A DNA stretch of 64,000 nucleotides from Halomonas sp. LBP4 (GTDB lineage: Bacteria; Pseudomonadota; Gammaproteobacteria; Pseudomonadales; Halomonadaceae). How positions within the stretch are numbered: the stretch's first letter is position 1; every line of letters starts with the position of its first letter. Location: the NCBI RefSeq assembly GCF_003202205.1, contig NZ_PDOG01000004.1, positions 214,641 through 278,640 on the forward strand. Direction: 5' to 3'. Below the pieces are notes generated by a model, which saw nothing but the letters and a program-made list of their open reading frames with translations, made no database searches and was not told the origin of the DNA. The position numbers and the translations under genes are program-made. This document shows positions 3,479 to 9,375 of the stretch, piece after piece.

Positions 3479-3502
3479 GCCAATCGTGAATGCCTCCTCA
3501 CC

Positions 3503-3516
3503 ATGACGCCAGTCAA
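3503..3516. promoter_or_regulatory. FNR/DNR-type box of the ubiUV promoter
   Basis: ATGAC GCCA GTCAA (TTGAC TGGC GTCAT on the other strand). A candidate -10 TAGCAT lies at 3539-3544, 32 bp centre to centre. That is the geometry of a class II FNR-activated promoter with the activator near -41.5. The ubiU ATG follows at 3574. Confidence 0.7.
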
Positions 3517-3573
3517 GGGCCAGGCAAGGATGGTCGACTAGCATGGTCGGGTTTTCATCGACAGGAGTCCGCC

Positions 3574-4569
3574 ATGGAGCTCGTCTGCCCCGCCGGCAAC
3601 CTGCCCGCCCTGAAGCGCGCCGTGGACGAAGGGGCCGATGCCGTCTACTTCGGCTTCCAGAACACCACCAACGCCCGCCAGTTCGCCGGGCTCAACTTCA
3701 CCGACAGGCGCGCCCGGGAAGGCATCGACTATGCCCACGCCCGCGACAAGCGGGTGTTCTGCGCCATCAACACCTATCCACAGCCCGACGGCTGGGAGCT
3801 GTGGACCCGCGCCGTGGACCAGGCCGTCGAGCTCGGCGTCGATGCCCTGATCCTGGCCGACATGGGCCTGCTCGACTACGCCGCCCGCCGCCATCCCTCC
3901 CTTCCCCGGCACCTGTCGGTGCAGGGCTCGGCCACCAGCCATGAGGCGTTGCGCTTCTACCACGAACAGTTCGGCATCCGGCGCGCCGTGCTGCCGCGGG
4001 TGCTGTCGATCACCCAGGTGCGCGACCTGGCCAGGCAGAGCCCGGTGGAGCTCGAGGTGTTCGCCTTCGGCAGCCTGTGCATCATGGCCGAGGGGCGCTG
4101 CTACCTGTCGTCCTATCTCACCGGCGAGTCGCCCAACACCCGCGGCGTCTGCTCGCCGGCGGCCCAGGTGCGCTGGGAGGAGACTCCCGAGGGGCTGGAG
4201 TCGCGCCTGGGCGGCGTGCTGATCGACCGCTACGCCGAGGGCGAACGGGCCGGCTACCCGACGCTGTGCAAGGGGCGCTTCGAAGTCGGCGGCGAGACCT
4301 ACCACGCCATCGAGGAGCCCACCAGCCTCAACACCCTGGCGCTGCTCCCGGAGCTCGCCGAGCTCGGCATCAGCGCGGTGAAGATCGAGGGCCGCCAGCG
4401 CAGCCCCGCCTATGTGTCGAAGGTCGCCGGCATCTGGCGCCAGGCGCTCGACCGCCTGGAGCGTAGCCCCGAACGCTTCCACCCCGACCCCGCCTGGATG
4501 GCCGGCCTCGGCGAGGTCTCCGAGGGCGCCACCACCACCCTGGGCGCCTACGAGCGCCGCTGGAAATAG
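3574..4569 (+). CDS. ubiU: Oxygen-independent ubiquinone hydroxylation protein UbiU (peptidase U32 family)
   Basis: A 331-residue protein of the U32 family that, with UbiV and UbiT, hydroxylates ubiquinone precursors when oxygen is absent. It opens with MELVCPAGNLPALKRAVDEG. Cysteines at 169, 176, 193 and 232 (LCIMAEGRC, RGVCSPA, TLCKGRF) match the four iron-sulfur ligands known for E. coli UbiU, and the length is the same. The ATG at 3574 is preceded by CAGGAG; the frame is open further upstream, but that part overlaps the promoter. It is followed 8 bp later by ubiV and controlled by the FNR-like box at 3503-3516. Confidence 0.95.
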   Translation: MELVCPAGNLPALKRAVDEGADAVYFGFQNTTNARQFAGLNFTDRRAREGIDYAHARDKRVFCAINTYPQPDGWELWTRAVDQAVELGVDALILADMGLLDYAARRHPSLPRHLSVQGSATSHEALRFYHEQFGIRRAVLPRVLSITQVRDLARQSPVELEVFAFGSLCIMAEGRCYLSSYLTGESPNTRGVCSPAAQVRWEETPEGLESRLGGVLIDRYAEGERAGYPTLCKGRFEVGGETYHAIEEPTSLNTLALLPELAELGISAVKIEGRQRSPAYVSKVAGIWRQALDRLERSPERFHPDPAWMAGLGEVSEGATTTLGAYERRWK

Positions 4570-4577
4570 GAGGCCCC

Positions 4578-5489
4578 ATGCCAACCCCCGACACCCTCAA
4601 GCTGTCGCTGGGCCCGGTGCTCTTCTACTGGACCCGCGAGCGCTACGCCGACTTCTACCGCGAGGCCGCCGACTGGCCGATCGAGATCGTCACCCTCGGC
4701 GAATCGGTCTGCTCGCGGCGCCGCGACATGAAGCTCGACGACTGGCTGGGCATCGGCCGCGAGCTGGCCCAGAGCGGCAAGAAGGTGGTGCTGGCGAGCC
4801 AGACCCTGATCGAGTCCGAGGCCGACCTGCGCGACCTGCGCCGGCTGTGCCACAACGGCGAATTCACCGTCGAGGCCAATGACCAGAGCGCGGTGCAGCG
4901 GCTCTCGGCGGCCGGCCTGCCCTTCGTCGCCGGGGCGGCGCTCAACCTCTACAACCCGGCGACCCTGGCCGTGCTGGCCCGCGCCGGCATGCAGTGCTGG
5001 CAGGCCCCGGTGGAGATGTCCCGCGCCGACCTGGCGCGGCTGCTCGACGACTGCCGCGACCAGGGCCTCGAGCAGCCCTGCGAGGTGTTCGCCTACGGCC
5101 ACCTGCCGCTGGCCTGGTCGTCGCGCTGCTTCACCGCGCGCCGCCACCAGAAGCCCAAGGACCGCTGCCGGTTCGTCTGCCAGCAGTACCCCGAGGGCCT
5201 GGCGCTGCGCTCCCAGGAATCCCGCGAGGTGTTTACCCTCAACGGCATCCAGACCCTCTCCGGCGCCTGCCAGGACCTGCGCCACGAGATCCCGGGCATG
5301 GCCGGGATGGGCGTCGGGGTCGCACGGCTGAGCCCACGCGCCGAGGGCATGGCCGAGGTGGTCACCGCCTTCGATGCAGCCCGGCGCGGTGCGCTTCCGC
5401 CCCCCGACCCGCTGGCCCTGGTCGACGCCGAGATCTGCGACGGCTACTGGCATGGCCGTCCCGGCATGGACTACACCCGCGCCGGCTGA
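4578..5489 (+). CDS. ubiV: Oxygen-independent ubiquinone hydroxylation protein UbiV
   Basis: A 303-residue U32-family partner of UbiU; the two form a heterodimer carrying [4Fe-4S] clusters. Family features are the start LKLSLGPVLFYWTRERYADF, Cys45 (GESVCSRRR) and the cluster Cys184/Cys197/Cys201 (SSRCFTARR, DRCRFVCQQYP), in the same order as the four ligands of E. coli UbiV. It sits 8 bp after ubiU with AGGAGG in the gap. Its last codons (EICDGYWHGRPGMD) recur at 8561-8620 in a deletion remnant before the second nrdG. Confidence 0.95.
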   Translation: MPTPDTLKLSLGPVLFYWTRERYADFYREAADWPIEIVTLGESVCSRRRDMKLDDWLGIGRELAQSGKKVVLASQTLIESEADLRDLRRLCHNGEFTVEANDQSAVQRLSAAGLPFVAGAALNLYNPATLAVLARAGMQCWQAPVEMSRADLARLLDDCRDQGLEQPCEVFAYGHLPLAWSSRCFTARRHQKPKDRCRFVCQQYPEGLALRSQESREVFTLNGIQTLSGACQDLRHEIPGMAGMGVGVARLSPRAEGMAEVVTAFDAARRGALPPPDPLALVDAEICDGYWHGRPGMDYTRAG

Positions 5490-5602: not shown

Positions 5603-5689
5603 CTCCCGCCATCTCGTCAGTCCCCAACCTGTAAAACACAATATATAGTGTCTTATAGTTCAAAATATGGCATATATAGGGAGATCGCA

Positions 5690-7429
5690 GTGCCCCCCTC
5701 TACTAACGGTCAAACTGAAAAGCACCGCCTCGCTGTCGCCGCCACGGTCGACGAGTACCTCGAGCGCACCGACTGGCGCGTCCACGCCAACGCCAACCAG
5801 GGCTACTCCCTGGGCGGGCTGATCCTCAACGTCTCGGGCAAGCTGATCGCCAACTACTGGCTCGACGAGGTCTACCCCGCCGCGGTGGGCGAGGCACATC
5901 GCCGGGGCGACCTGCATATCCACGACCTCGACATGCTGTGCGGCTACTGCGCCGGCTGGTCGCTGCGCACCCTGCTGATCGAGGGCTTCAACGGCGTGCC
6001 CGGCCGCGCCGAGAGTGACCCGCCCCGACACTTCACCAGCGCCCTGGGCCAGATGGTCAACTTCCTCGGTACCCTGCAGAACGAGTGGGCCGGCGCCCAG
6101 GCCTTCAGCTCCTTCGATACCTACCTGGCGCCCTATGTGCGCAAGGAGGCACTGGACTACCCGGCGGTGAAACAGGCCATCCAGGAGTTCATCTACAACC
6201 TCAACGTGCCCTCGCGCTGGGGCAGCCAGACGCCCTTCACCAACCTGACCTTCGACTGGGTCTGCCCGGAGGATCTGCGCCGGCAGGTGCCGGTCATCGG
6301 CGGCGAGGAGCAGCCCTTCGCCTACGGCGAGCTAAAGGCCGAGATGGACCTGATCAACCGCGCCTACCTGGAGGTGATGGAGGCCGGCGATCGCCAGGGG
6401 CGAGTCTTCACCTTCCCGATCCCCACCTACAACATCACCCGCGACTTCGACTGGGAGAGCGACAATGCCGAGCGACTCTTCGCGCTGACCGCCAAGTACG
6501 GCCTGCCCTACTTCCAGAACTTCCTCAACTCCGACCTGGAGCCGCACATGGTGCGCTCCATGTGCTGCCGCCTGCAGCTCGACCTCGGCGAGCTGCTCAA
6601 GCGCGGCAACGGCCTGTTCGGCAGCGCCGAGCAGACCGGCTCGCTGGGGGTGGTGACGATCAACTGCGCGCGGCTGGGCCATCGCTTCGCCGGCGACCGC
6701 ACGGGGCTGCTCGACGAGCTCGACCGGCTGCTGGCGCTGGGCCGCGACAGCCTGGAACTCAAGCGGGAACGCATCCAGGCGTGGATGGACGGCGGCCTCT
6801 ACCCCTTCACCCGGCGCTACCTCGGCACCCTGCGCAACCACTTCTCGACCCTCGGCGTGAACGGCCTCAACGAGATGGTCCGCAACTTCAGCGACGACAC
6901 CCATGACATCGCCGACCCGGAAGGGCAGCAACTGGCCCTGGAGGTGCTCGACCACGTACGCGGGCGGATGCAGGAGTACCAGGAGCAGACCGGGCACCTC
7001 TACAATCTGGAGGCCACCCCGGCCGAGGGCACCACCTACCGCTTCGCCCGGGAGGACCGCGCTCGTTACCCCGGCATCCTCCAGGCCGGCACGCCGGAGG
7101 CGCCCTACTACACCAACTCCAGCCAGTTGCCGGTGGGTCACACCGACGACCCCTTCGAGGCGCTGATCCACCAGGACCCACTGCAGACCCGCTACACCGG
7201 CGGCACCGTGCTGCATCTCTACATGCGCGAGAAGCTGTCCAGCGCTGCGGCCTGCCGGACCCTGGTGCGCACCGCCCTGTCCCGTTTCCGCCTGCCCTAC
7301 CTGACCGTGACACCGACCTTCTCGATCTGTCCGGTACACGGCTACCTGGCCGGCGAACACGAATTCTGCCCCAGGTGCGACGACGCCCTGCTGGCAGAGC
7401 AGGCCTCGACGGCCGATGCCACGGCCTGA
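5690..7429 (+). CDS. nrdD: Anaerobic (class III) ribonucleoside-triphosphate reductase, catalytic chain lacking its glycyl-radical end
   Basis: A 579-residue NrdD-like reductase that makes deoxynucleotides without oxygen. No ATP-cone is present; the protein begins almost directly with the catalytic barrel (YSLGGLILNVSGKLIANYW). Active-site motifs include HIHDLDMLCGYC (Cys84, Cys87), NLNVPSRWGSQTPFTNLTFD, a MCCRLQLDL pair and LHLYMREKL. It ends with the usual zinc motif (ICPVHGYLAGEHEFCPRCD) and then stops, so the RVxGY glycyl-radical segment is missing from this chain. That segment is a separate small gene 42 bp downstream, in the same frame. The start is GTG at 5690, six bases after AGGGAG; upstream in-frame sequence is promoter and ubiV overlap. 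Confidence 0.88.
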   Translation: MPPSTNGQTEKHRLAVAATVDEYLERTDWRVHANANQGYSLGGLILNVSGKLIANYWLDEVYPAAVGEAHRRGDLHIHDLDMLCGYCAGWSLRTLLIEGFNGVPGRAESDPPRHFTSALGQMVNFLGTLQNEWAGAQAFSSFDTYLAPYVRKEALDYPAVKQAIQEFIYNLNVPSRWGSQTPFTNLTFDWVCPEDLRRQVPVIGGEEQPFAYGELKAEMDLINRAYLEVMEAGDRQGRVFTFPIPTYNITRDFDWESDNAERLFALTAKYGLPYFQNFLNSDLEPHMVRSMCCRLQLDLGELLKRGNGLFGSAEQTGSLGVVTINCARLGHRFAGDRTGLLDELDRLLALGRDSLELKRERIQAWMDGGLYPFTRRYLGTLRNHFSTLGVNGLNEMVRNFSDDTHDIADPEGQQLALEVLDHVRGRMQEYQEQTGHLYNLEATPAEGTTYRFAREDRARYPGILQAGTPEAPYYTNSSQLPVGHTDDPFEALIHQDPLQTRYTGGTVLHLYMREKLSSAAACRTLVRTALSRFRLPYLTVTPTFSICPVHGYLAGEHEFCPRCDDALLAEQASTADATA

Positions 7430-7471
7430 GGCGCCATTCCCCCCCACCCCCGAAGCACGAAGGAGCATCAC

Positions 7472-7636
7472 ATGAGCCAAGCACACCACGACACCCTGCC
7501 CACCGAGCGTCGCCAGCGCTGCGAGGTCTGGACCCGGGTGATGGGCTACCACCGCCCGGTCAGCCAGTTCAACCTCGGCAAGCGCGCCGAGCATCGCGAG
7601 CGCCGCCACTTCACCGAGCAGGCCTCGAGCCACTGA
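7472..7636 (+). CDS. Stand-alone glycyl-radical subunit of the class III ribonucleotide reductase
   Basis: A 54-residue protein consisting of little more than a glycyl-radical domain: RCEVWTRVMGYHRPVSQFNL followed by GKRAEHRERRHF. RVMGY is the radical loop and Gly25 the predicted radical site. In ordinary NrdD proteins this segment is fused directly after the zinc motif. Here it has its own strong ribosome binding site (AAGGAG, six bases before ATG), so it is a genuine separate gene. It sits in the same reading frame as nrdD, separated by one TGA, which suggests a split of an ancestral single gene. GrcA/YfiD is the known analogy for pyruvate formate-lyase. The downstream NrdG-type enzyme would activate it. 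Confidence 0.85.
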   Translation: MSQAHHDTLPTERRQRCEVWTRVMGYHRPVSQFNLGKRAEHRERRHFTEQASSH

Positions 7637-7682: not shown

Positions 7683-8399
7683 ATGCCCAGCTCCCGCCTC
7701 CACCTGCCCGTGGCCGGCCTGACGCCCATGACCACCCTCGACTACCCGGGCCACCTGGCCTGCGTGGTCTTCCTGCAGGGCTGCCCGCTGCGCTGCGGCT
7801 ATTGCCACAACCCTCAGATGCTCGCCCCGCGACGCGGCGATCCGCAGGAGTGGCAGGCGGTCCGCGACTTCCTGGCGCGTCGCCGCAGCCTGCTCGAGGC
7901 CGTGGTGTTCAGCGGCGGCGAGCCGACCCAGCACCCCGACCTGCCCGCGGCCATCGCCCAGGCCAGCGCCATGGGCTTCAAGGTCGGGCTCCACACCGCC
8001 GGGGTCTACCCCCATCGCCTGGCCGAGCTGCTGCCCTGGCTCGACTGGGTGGGGCTGGACGTCAAGGGCGACGCCGAGGCCTTCGACCGGATCTGCGGCC
8101 GCCCCGGCCTCCAGGCGGCACACGGGCGCAGCCTGGCCCTGCTGCTGGCGAACGGGGTGGACCTGGAGTGCCGCACCACCGTGCACTGGCGCGATTTCGA
8201 CCTGGCGGCGGTGAAGCGGCTGGCACTGAGCCTGGCCGAGTGCGGCGTGACCCGCTATGCGCTGCAGATCGCCCGCCCCGGGCAGAGCCTCGACGGCGCC
8301 TACGCCGCACCGGTCCCGGGCGCCCCGGGCATGGCGGCCCTGGACGCGCTCGTCGAGAGCCTGCGGCCCGCCTTCGAGAGCCTGATCCTGCGCCGCTGA
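7683..8399 (+). CDS. nrdG: Anaerobic ribonucleotide reductase activating radical SAM protein (NrdG-type)
   Basis: A 238-residue radical S-adenosylmethionine enzyme that would install the glycyl radical. The cluster motif is Cys34-x3-Cys38-x2-Cys41 (GCPLRCGYCHNPQM) with the classical HNP following. The SAM-binding FSGGEPTQHPDLP follows, and the GLDVKGDAEAFDRI strand is also typical. N-terminal sequence TTLDYPGHLACVVFLQGC is that of the NrdG2-like family (recalled as TIGR02495). It is the third gene of the nrdD operon, 46 bp after the glycyl-radical gene. Confidence 0.9.
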   Translation: MPSSRLHLPVAGLTPMTTLDYPGHLACVVFLQGCPLRCGYCHNPQMLAPRRGDPQEWQAVRDFLARRRSLLEAVVFSGGEPTQHPDLPAAIAQASAMGFKVGLHTAGVYPHRLAELLPWLDWVGLDVKGDAEAFDRICGRPGLQAAHGRSLALLLANGVDLECRTTVHWRDFDLAAVKRLALSLAECGVTRYALQIARPGQSLDGAYAAPVPGAPGMAALDALVESLRPAFESLILRR

Positions 8400-8430
8400 G
8401 CCACCGCCGGCCGCCCGAACCCGCCTCGCC

Positions 8431-8444
8431 ATGACCCGCGTCAA
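8431..8444. promoter_or_regulatory. FNR/DNR-type box in the duplicated ubiU promoter
   Basis: ATGAC CCGC GTCAA, followed by TAGCAT at 8466-8471 (31 bp centre to centre). Positions 8456-8550 repeat 3528-3623 (the ubiU promoter, ribosome binding site and first codons) almost base for base. The activator box survived in both copies, although its central four bases differ. Confidence 0.7.
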
Positions 8445-8500
8445 GGCCGCCGGCGAATGGTCGACTAGCATGGTGGGGTTTTCATCGAGAGGAGTCCGCC

Positions 8501-8632
8501 ATGGAGCTCGTCTGCCCCGCCGGCAACCTGCCCGCCCTGAAGCACGCCGTGGACCAGGCCGCCGAGATCTGCGACGGCTACTGGCACGGCCGCCCGGGCA
8601 TGGACCACAGCCGAGCGGGGAACGTCATATGA
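8501..8632 (+). pseudogene. ubiU::ubiV internal-deletion remnant, 43 codons, still open
   Basis: The reading frame begins as ubiU (MELVCPAGNLPALKHAVDQA) and passes in frame into the end of ubiV (AEICDGYWHGRPGMDHSRAG), then NVI and stop. It therefore represents a second ubiUV copy that lost everything between codon 18 of ubiU and about the last 20 codons of ubiV. Promoter, ribosome binding site and start codon are intact. The TGA overlaps the ATG of the next gene as ATGA, so the remnant may now act only as a translated leader for that gene. No iron-sulfur ligands other than Cys5 remain, so no UbiU/UbiV activity is expected. Confidence 0.8.
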
Positions 8633-9375
8633 GCGCCCGGATCATCCCCCTCGCCCCCGAGTCGCCCCCGGCGATCCGCCTGCCGGTAGCAGGTTTCACC
8701 GCCCTGGACACCCGAGCCTTTCCGGGCCGGCGTGCCGCCGTGGTCTATCTGCAGGGCTGCCCGCTACAGTGCGGCTACTGCGAAACCGGCGAGATGTCCA
8801 CCCCGCGCCGCGGCGAGCCCGGCGAGTGGGAGGGCCTCCAGGCCCTGCTGGCCGCCGGCAGCGGTCAGATCGATGCGGTGGTGTTCAGCGGCGGCGAGCC
8901 GACCCTGCACGCCGACCTGCCGGCCGCCGCCGAGGCCTGTCGGGCGCTGGGCCTGGCGGTGGGGCTGCACACCGCCGGCCCCTATCCCGAGCGGCTCGAG
9001 GCCCTGCTGCCACAACTCGATTGGGTGGCGCTGGACACCAAGGGGCGCGGTGCCGACTTCGACCGCATCGCCGGCCGCGAGCGGATCTGGCAACGCCACG
9101 CCCGGAGCCTCTCGCTGCTGCTGGAGGGCGATACCCCCTTCGAGTGCCGCACCACGGTGCACTGGCGCGACTTCAGCCTCGAGGCCCTGGAGCGACTGGC
9201 CTATACCCTGGCCGACTGCGGCGTGCGCCACTACGCCATCCAGCTGGCCCGCCTCGAGCGCTGCCGTGATCCCGACTACTGCCGGCCGGTGGCCGATGCC
9301 CCCTCCCGGGAGACCCTGGAGACCCTGGTCCGGCGGCTGCGGCCCCACTTCGCGCATATCGAGCTGCGCGGCTAG
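8629..9375 (+). CDS. Second NrdG-like radical SAM activase paralogue
   Basis: A 248-residue paralogue of the NrdG protein encoded just upstream (shared VVFSGGEPT, GLHTAG, ECRTTVHWRDF). The cluster cysteines Cys44, Cys48 and Cys51 are kept (GCPLQCGYCETGEM), but the family's HNP after the third cysteine is replaced by ETG. The region before the cluster is also altered (LDTRAFPGRRAAVVYLQGC). It may activate another glycyl-radical protein or the same NrdD with different properties. The ATG overlaps the stop of the ubiU::ubiV remnant, so it is probably expressed from the duplicated FNR-type promoter by translational coupling. Confidence 0.8.
   Translation: MSARIIPLAPESPPAIRLPVAGFTALDTRAFPGRRAAVVYLQGCPLQCGYCETGEMSTPRRGEPGEWEGLQALLAAGSGQIDAVVFSGGEPTLHADLPAAAEACRALGLAVGLHTAGPYPERLEALLPQLDWVALDTKGRGADFDRIAGRERIWQRHARSLSLLLEGDTPFECRTTVHWRDFSLEALERLAYTLADCGVRHYAIQLARLERCRDPDYCRPVADAPSRETLETLVRRLRPHFAHIELRG

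Follow-up and report, generated by a model that had tools for sequence, protein, structure and literature searches.

The nrdD-nrdG locus of Halomonas sp. LBP4

The genome of Halomonas sp. LBP4 comprises 4.76 Mb in 60 contigs, and the stretch of 64,000 nucleotides that we analyzed is referred to here as the window. On its forward strand, nrdD extends from a GTG at 5690 to a TGA at 7427–7429 (coordinates 5690–7429) and codes for a 579-residue large chain of a class III ribonucleotide reductase, with a barrel and a zinc motif and without an ATP-cone. The product scores 429 bits against TIGR02487 (cut-off 326), which identifies the catalytic barrel of class III enzymes, and a profile search aligns it with positions 2 to 528 of the 562 in PF13597 at 564 bits. 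Both the finger-loop cysteine and the C-terminal zinc motif of class III NrdD are present. The finger-loop motif SMCCR is encoded at 6557–6571 (forward strand), and residues S290 to R294 are invariant in our alignment, as are C547, C560, and C563 of the zinc motif CPVHGYLAGEHEFCPRC encoded at 7328–7378 (forward strand). The chain ends 16 residues past C563, the last zinc cysteine, and neither its sequence nor the PF13597 alignment contains an RVxGY glycyl-radical loop within the 579 residues.

The piece missing from NrdD is encoded by a separate small gene at 7472–7636 on the same strand, starting with ATG at 7472 and ending with TGA at 7634–7636. Its 54-residue product, a putative stand-alone glycyl-radical subunit, matches positions 530 to 562 of PF13597 with 33.2 bits (cut-off 26.2), and the codon at 7544–7546 (forward strand) specifies Gly25, the predicted radical glycine of its RVMGY motif. 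The nrdD stop codon and the ATG of the small gene are separated by 42 bases, which include an AAGGAG ribosome-binding site at 7460–7465 (forward strand; 6-base spacing to the ATG) and form 14 open codons in the same frame as both genes. The original prediction had described an NrdD that ends just past its zinc motif without RVxGY, and a 54-residue glycyl-radical gene with its own AAGGAG site, in frame with nrdD and parted from it by a single TGA; all of this agrees with what we find. It had also described the small gene as encoding almost nothing but CEVWTRVMGYHRPV, and although that motif is there, an FNxGKxxExxxR tail beyond the RVMGY loop is conserved too.

Directly after the small gene lies nrdG (7683–8399, forward strand), which codes for a radical-SAM activase of the NrdG2 type (TIGR02495, 189.9 bits, cut-off 131.15), the activase of a class III reductase. 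Upstream of nrdD, at 5636–5651 on the forward strand, there is a perfect palindrome, ACACAATATATAGTGT, with no mismatches to what we take to be the NrdR-box consensus; one such match occurs in the window and none in 100 shuffles. At 75 named loci the best NrdR-like box 5' of nrdD most commonly has three mismatches (17 of 75), the shuffled mean being 6.3. A PF13597 search of the whole genome gives exactly two pieces, NrdD and the small protein, and nothing else; the complete NrdD whose presence elsewhere, together with inactivity of the split pair, had been named as grounds for rejecting the original prediction is thus absent by this profile. Among the named loci that we read, the nearest relative of the window's NrdD is that of Halomonas socia, at 89% identity.

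The region downstream has features of its own. A second NrdG-like gene at 8629–9375 shares 54% identity with the first across 232 residues and retains the CxxxCxxC motif; it matches the Halomonas socia locus (L221) in short pieces only. We considered it as an alternative activase for the small protein and set it aside on account of these short matches. The segment at 8421–8619 is a deletion remnant of a duplicated pair of genes, which we take to be ubiU and ubiV, with most of both genes gone and 88% matches to 3493–3638 and 5426–5485.

Distribution of the split in bacteria

The small gene is present in 38 of 90 genomes of the genus, including that of LBP4, and absent from 52, and at all 30 genus loci that we read (the window's among them) nrdD lies upstream with a stop codon between. 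Matches to the small gene occur in 28 of 293 genomes of the order and in 35 of 369 of the class, a few of them being fused NrdD. Thirty genomes in the class sample have an NrdD of at least 68% identity, a count that excludes G526 (fragments only) and NrdD proteins below 60%. The genes are split in 28 of these and fused in one (G599, loci L082 and L118); in the remaining one, G714, NrdD runs off the contig and no small gene was found. Among 53 loci scored, 49 were labelled split, of which L055, whose frames are broken, and L083, at the end of a contig, are doubtful; three are fused (L082 and the distant L056 and L057), and L045 has no adjoining NrdD. A sample of 378 genomes from the phylum includes 12 with an NrdD of at least 62% identity, four of them common to the class sample. 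All 12 NrdD chains end past the zinc motif; the small gene adjoins in 11 and is 9.4 kb away in one. The distant NrdD proteins that we read are fused, namely the E. coli type, with RRVCGY, and the 50% relatives at L122, L124, and L293.

A scan of named sequences with the loop pattern VWTRVMGY or IWTRVMGY recovered at least 581 stretches. The best 80 loci comprise 78 split ones, 77 of which have an NrdG match, and two orphans; among them are Pseudomonas fluorescens, P. veronii, Stutzerimonas stutzeri, Vogesella, Propionivibrio, Oxalobacter, and others. Conservation of the split in other genomes, one of the checks proposed with the original prediction, is seen both among the class genomes and among these best named loci. 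Matches were also found in 29 plasmid records. Nine were examined, of which one carries the loop gene alone and eight are split: those of Cupriavidus necator H16, C. metallidurans, two Paracoccus, Bradyrhizobium, Azospira, Sulfuricystis, and Thiothrix. The small gene in the plasmid records is annotated as nrdD, as an anaerobic reductase, as hypothetical, or not at all. In one cluster on plasmid pAZI09 of Azospira sp. I09 (L091), a class I alpha gene directly precedes nrdD, the small gene, and nrdG, and a class I beta gene directly follows them.

C. necator H16 connects the split genes with a phenotype. Its NrdD is 676 residues long without a radical loop, with a 66-residue small protein encoded between nrdD and nrdG, and the loop-less chain computes to 76.2 kDa; Siedow reportedly described an NrdD of 76.2 kDa in H16. 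NrdDG of H16 is reported to be essential for complete denitrification (PMC2864759) and, as its NrdD has no loop, this suggests that the split enzyme works in the cell, provided that the small gene supplies the loop.

In a tree of 81 NrdD sequences (69 split, 12 fused) built by a quick method, the split label requires three changes, which does not establish a single origin; L290 and L292 were labelled split for the missing loop in the NrdD frame, the small gene of L290 being 9.4 kb away. L118, which is fused, branches among split sequences with modest support (87), and long branches disturb the rest of the tree. From this position L118 looks as if it had been re-fused, and as a fused close relative it shows that the enzyme can do without the split. 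L292 (from G956, a 0.9 Mb genome) has a loop variant, RSMGF, just 3' of NrdD, with the glycine kept. Split operons near proteobacterial ones also occur in assemblies labelled Thermoflexus or Omnitrophota (L205, L208, and L245), reflecting either transfer or assembly contamination.

Loop genes without nrdD in viruses and elsewhere

Scanning viral contigs recovered 92 relatives of the small protein. There is no NrdD match near the loop gene in the best 80 of these 92 loci (L125–L204) within the available flanking DNA, which reaches at least 1.5 kb upstream in 63 and on both sides in 50, from records that may be fragments. In each of 36 larger viral contigs searched whole the sole PF13597 match is the loop end, and 35 of these score over the cut-off. 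All 80 viral proteins have the radical glycine, as they must because the loci were collected by that motif. The viral copies have a pN of 0.104 and a pS of 0.503 over 142 close pairs, which are not independent of each other, and five RVMGYHRP-type proteins that were tested all belong to phrog_4132, of unknown function. Neighboring genes include those for DNA polymerase A and a clamp loader (L128) or a clamp loader (L200), and Mu-like portal and head genes adjoin the loop gene in L136, L185, and the prophage-like L282. Ten of the 80 viral small proteins (L129, L136, L137, L141, L142, L152, L163, L166, L177, and L198) have an N-terminal cysteine-rich extension, which might take the place of NrdD's zinc knob.

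Among 50,697 phage records only that of ANMV-1, an archaeal virus, matches, indicating that few catalogued phages carry the gene. Its 144-residue protein AJP62049 (KP703175, L326), annotated as an anaerobic ribonucleoside triphosphate reductase, matches NrdD at its glycyl-radical end only, and there is no barrel in the 38 kb record. Like the window's protein it is a stand-alone glycyl-radical domain; unlike it, it is encoded by a virus, is of the RIVGYLRP type, and has an upstream cysteine pair, CHDC...CPKC. Used as a single query on the viral contigs it found no relative, and an alignment of related tails, of another NrdD type than the window's, found 234 relatives of this second sequence type. 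Of the best 80 (L327–L406), 58 are without a barrel and 16 have one, three are cut by contig ends, and three lack the search motif; all 33 second-type contigs searched whole contain the glycyl-radical domain only. Some second-type viral proteins have cysteine pairs upstream of the domain, as in ANMV-1. As a control we examined E. coli-type tails, and a barrel adjoins in 63 of 63 viral loci; contig fragmentation by itself thus does not make orphans.

Cellular genomes contain extra copies as well, with two orphans beside a split pair in G1114 and one in G645 (BMS3Bbin13). G294 has an orphan loop gene and its sole NrdD is of the fused E. coli type, showing that an orphan need not have a split partner available. 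No NrdD accompanies the loop gene anywhere on the 176 kb plasmid pAt1 of Allochromatium tepidum (L090).

We think it probable, with some reservation, that the stand-alone NrdD loops are exchangeable radical subunits of bacteria, plasmids, and viruses, and that the viral ones recharge or take over the host reductase, securing dNTPs.

A predicted radical subunit acting in trans

The window's enzyme resembles the one-chain NrdD of T4, E. coli, and T. maritima in its barrel, finger-loop cysteines, zinc motif, NrdG, and RVxGY-like loop, and differs in a break that falls between zinc motif and loop, the loop having a gene of its own. Because the loop is in the 54-residue product and not in the same chain as the barrel, this is a variant of the class III reductase. 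Division of a ribonucleotide reductase into two chains has a parallel in the class II NrdJa/NrdJb of P. aeruginosa (PMC4860495, PMC9669993), although NrdJ is a B12 enzyme.

We modelled the read-through product of the window, in which a W at the TGA and the 14 intervening codons join both chains. This is a device, as the linker is not expected to be translated and a joined chain cannot show binding of the free small chain. The model has a mean pLDDT of 85.2 and a pTM of 0.87, with 83–91 at residues 601–640, less than 50 at the joint, and 67 at the last eight residues. It aligns with solved NrdD structures from residue 6 to 642–645 (8p2s, Z 34.5), and the aligned ranges end with model residue 626 at T4 587 (1h78) and 632 at T. 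maritima 634 (4coj). If these ends are gap-free, Gly25 (model residue 619) corresponds to T4 580 in 1h78 and T. maritima 621 in 4coj, and by the same reckoning to 579 in 1h7a and to 699 in S. thermophilus 9d3x, compared with its Gly697. The radical glycines are reported as Gly621 in T. maritima (PMC4493059), Gly580 in T4 (from the title of a reference in PMC3019208), and Gly697 in S. thermophilus (PMC12662201). On a gap-free reading, the model puts the Gly25 loop at the known place of the radical glycine. No solved protein chain matches the small-protein profile at E values up to 0.1.

The locus very probably codes for a split class III ribonucleotide reductase, in which NrdD is joined non-covalently by a 54-residue radical chain charged at Gly25 by NrdG. 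NrdD would supply the barrel, effector sites, finger-loop cysteines, and zinc knob, and the small protein would bind the barrel where the C-terminal loop is missing. NrdG presumably acts on the NrdD-bound small chain, placing the radical onto Gly25, from which it would move to the finger-loop cysteine during catalysis; complex formation, the radical on Gly25, and catalysis are steps that we infer. A methionine in the finger loop has been linked with formate as reductant (PMC9669993), making formate the likely reductant for an enzyme with an SMCCR finger loop. Oxygen is reported to cut NrdD at the radical (PMC3019208, PMC12288474), so that damage at the radical glycine would cost the cell only the small chain, which could then be replaced, and viruses would exploit this by carrying the small chain alone. 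The original prediction of a catalytic chain with a separate radical-bearing chain is supported by sequence, conservation, and modelling.

Alternative explanations

GrcA/YfiD and the phage-encoded T4 Y06I are described as spare parts of pyruvate formate-lyase (PFL) (PMC8683613), and the small protein could likewise serve chiefly as a spare for repair instead of being a standing subunit. It too is a small stand-alone glycyl-radical domain proposed to act in trans on a barrel without its own loop, its size and content are those expected of a spare part, and orphan copies occur beside split pairs and alone in viruses. However, it derives from NrdD and not PFL, has 54 residues compared with about 14 kDa, and at E values up to 1 in Pfam it matches the NRDD family only and not that of the PFL C-terminus. 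More importantly, GrcA stands by for an enzyme that is intact, whereas neither in the window's genome nor in 165 split loci does NrdD have an in-frame loop of its own, and for the window's gene (as distinct from the viral copies) the PF13597 search gives no otherwise complete enzyme to repair. The small protein, as the only radical loop present, is needed from the start, and any activity requires it as a standing subunit; a role mainly in repair is therefore improbable. The likeness to GrcA proposed at the outset fits the orphan viral copies better than the window's protein. Standing-subunit and spare-part roles can go together, and the best reading is that the small protein is an obligate trans-acting radical subunit that viruses carry as a spare.

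A split that is only apparent, with TGA read-through or ribosome coupling yielding one long NrdD, would be consistent with the matching frames and the 14 open codons in the window, but is very unlikely given the arrangement at other loci. We compared 165 split loci, from which duplicates were excluded but which still include near-duplicates (L061 and L217 come from a single assembly), so not all are independent. The small gene occupies the three frames relative to nrdD in 43, 58, and 64 of these loci (chi-square p 0.12 against equal use), the gap between the nrdD stop and its ATG ranges from -38 to 415 bases (median 34), and nrdD ends in TGA in 126, TAA in 26, and TAG in 13. A Shine-Dalgarno-like 4-mer precedes 151 of the 165 small-gene starts, compared with 35% in shuffles, and in G1049 the small gene is unlinked, adjoining nrdG 9.4 kb from nrdD. 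These are signs in the sequence that the small gene is separately translated. With random frames, varied gaps, and an unlinked copy in relatives, the in-frame TGA at 7427–7429 (forward strand) is a coincidence, and the original suggestion of an old stop mutation that became fixed is not upheld, as the stops vary and the small gene can be kilobases away.

The small gene is under purifying selection. Pooled over 29 comparisons with the window's copy, its 34 core codons have a pN of 0.033 and a pS of 0.196 (pN/pS 0.17). We give very little credence to the idea that it is a decaying remnant beside an inactive NrdD, as it is conserved across many families, a perfect NrdR-box-like site stands upstream of nrdD, and genetic work on the split operon of H16 has been reported (PMC2864759), even though another decayed duplicate, the ubiU-ubiV remnant, lies nearby. 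Two further candidates were rejected, a sequencing error at the TGA by the recurrence of the split and programmed recoding by the frame statistics and the unlinked copy.

Implications

In textbook class III reductases the radical is held within the catalytic chain. Our literature search found no description of a split or truncated NrdD or of a separate radical subunit, and an earlier mention is possible in Siedow 1999 (H16) or Wei 2014 (N. bacilliformis). Many Pseudomonadota, including species of Pseudomonas, Stutzerimonas, Cupriavidus, and Paracoccus, appear instead to hold the radical in a separate chain of about 55 residues. This affects the cloning and assay of nrdDG, as NrdD and NrdG alone should fail, and it makes the split pair a minimal system for the installation and exchange of a glycyl radical. 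Spare parts have been suggested as possible for other glycyl-radical enzymes (PMC8683613), a suggestion for which the split NrdD offers a direct test. The orphan viral copies suggest an unnamed class of auxiliary genes for dNTP supply in anoxic habitats. If the stand-alone loops are exchangeable radical subunits as proposed above, they would be the first spare-part system of a glycyl-radical enzyme besides that of pyruvate formate-lyase.
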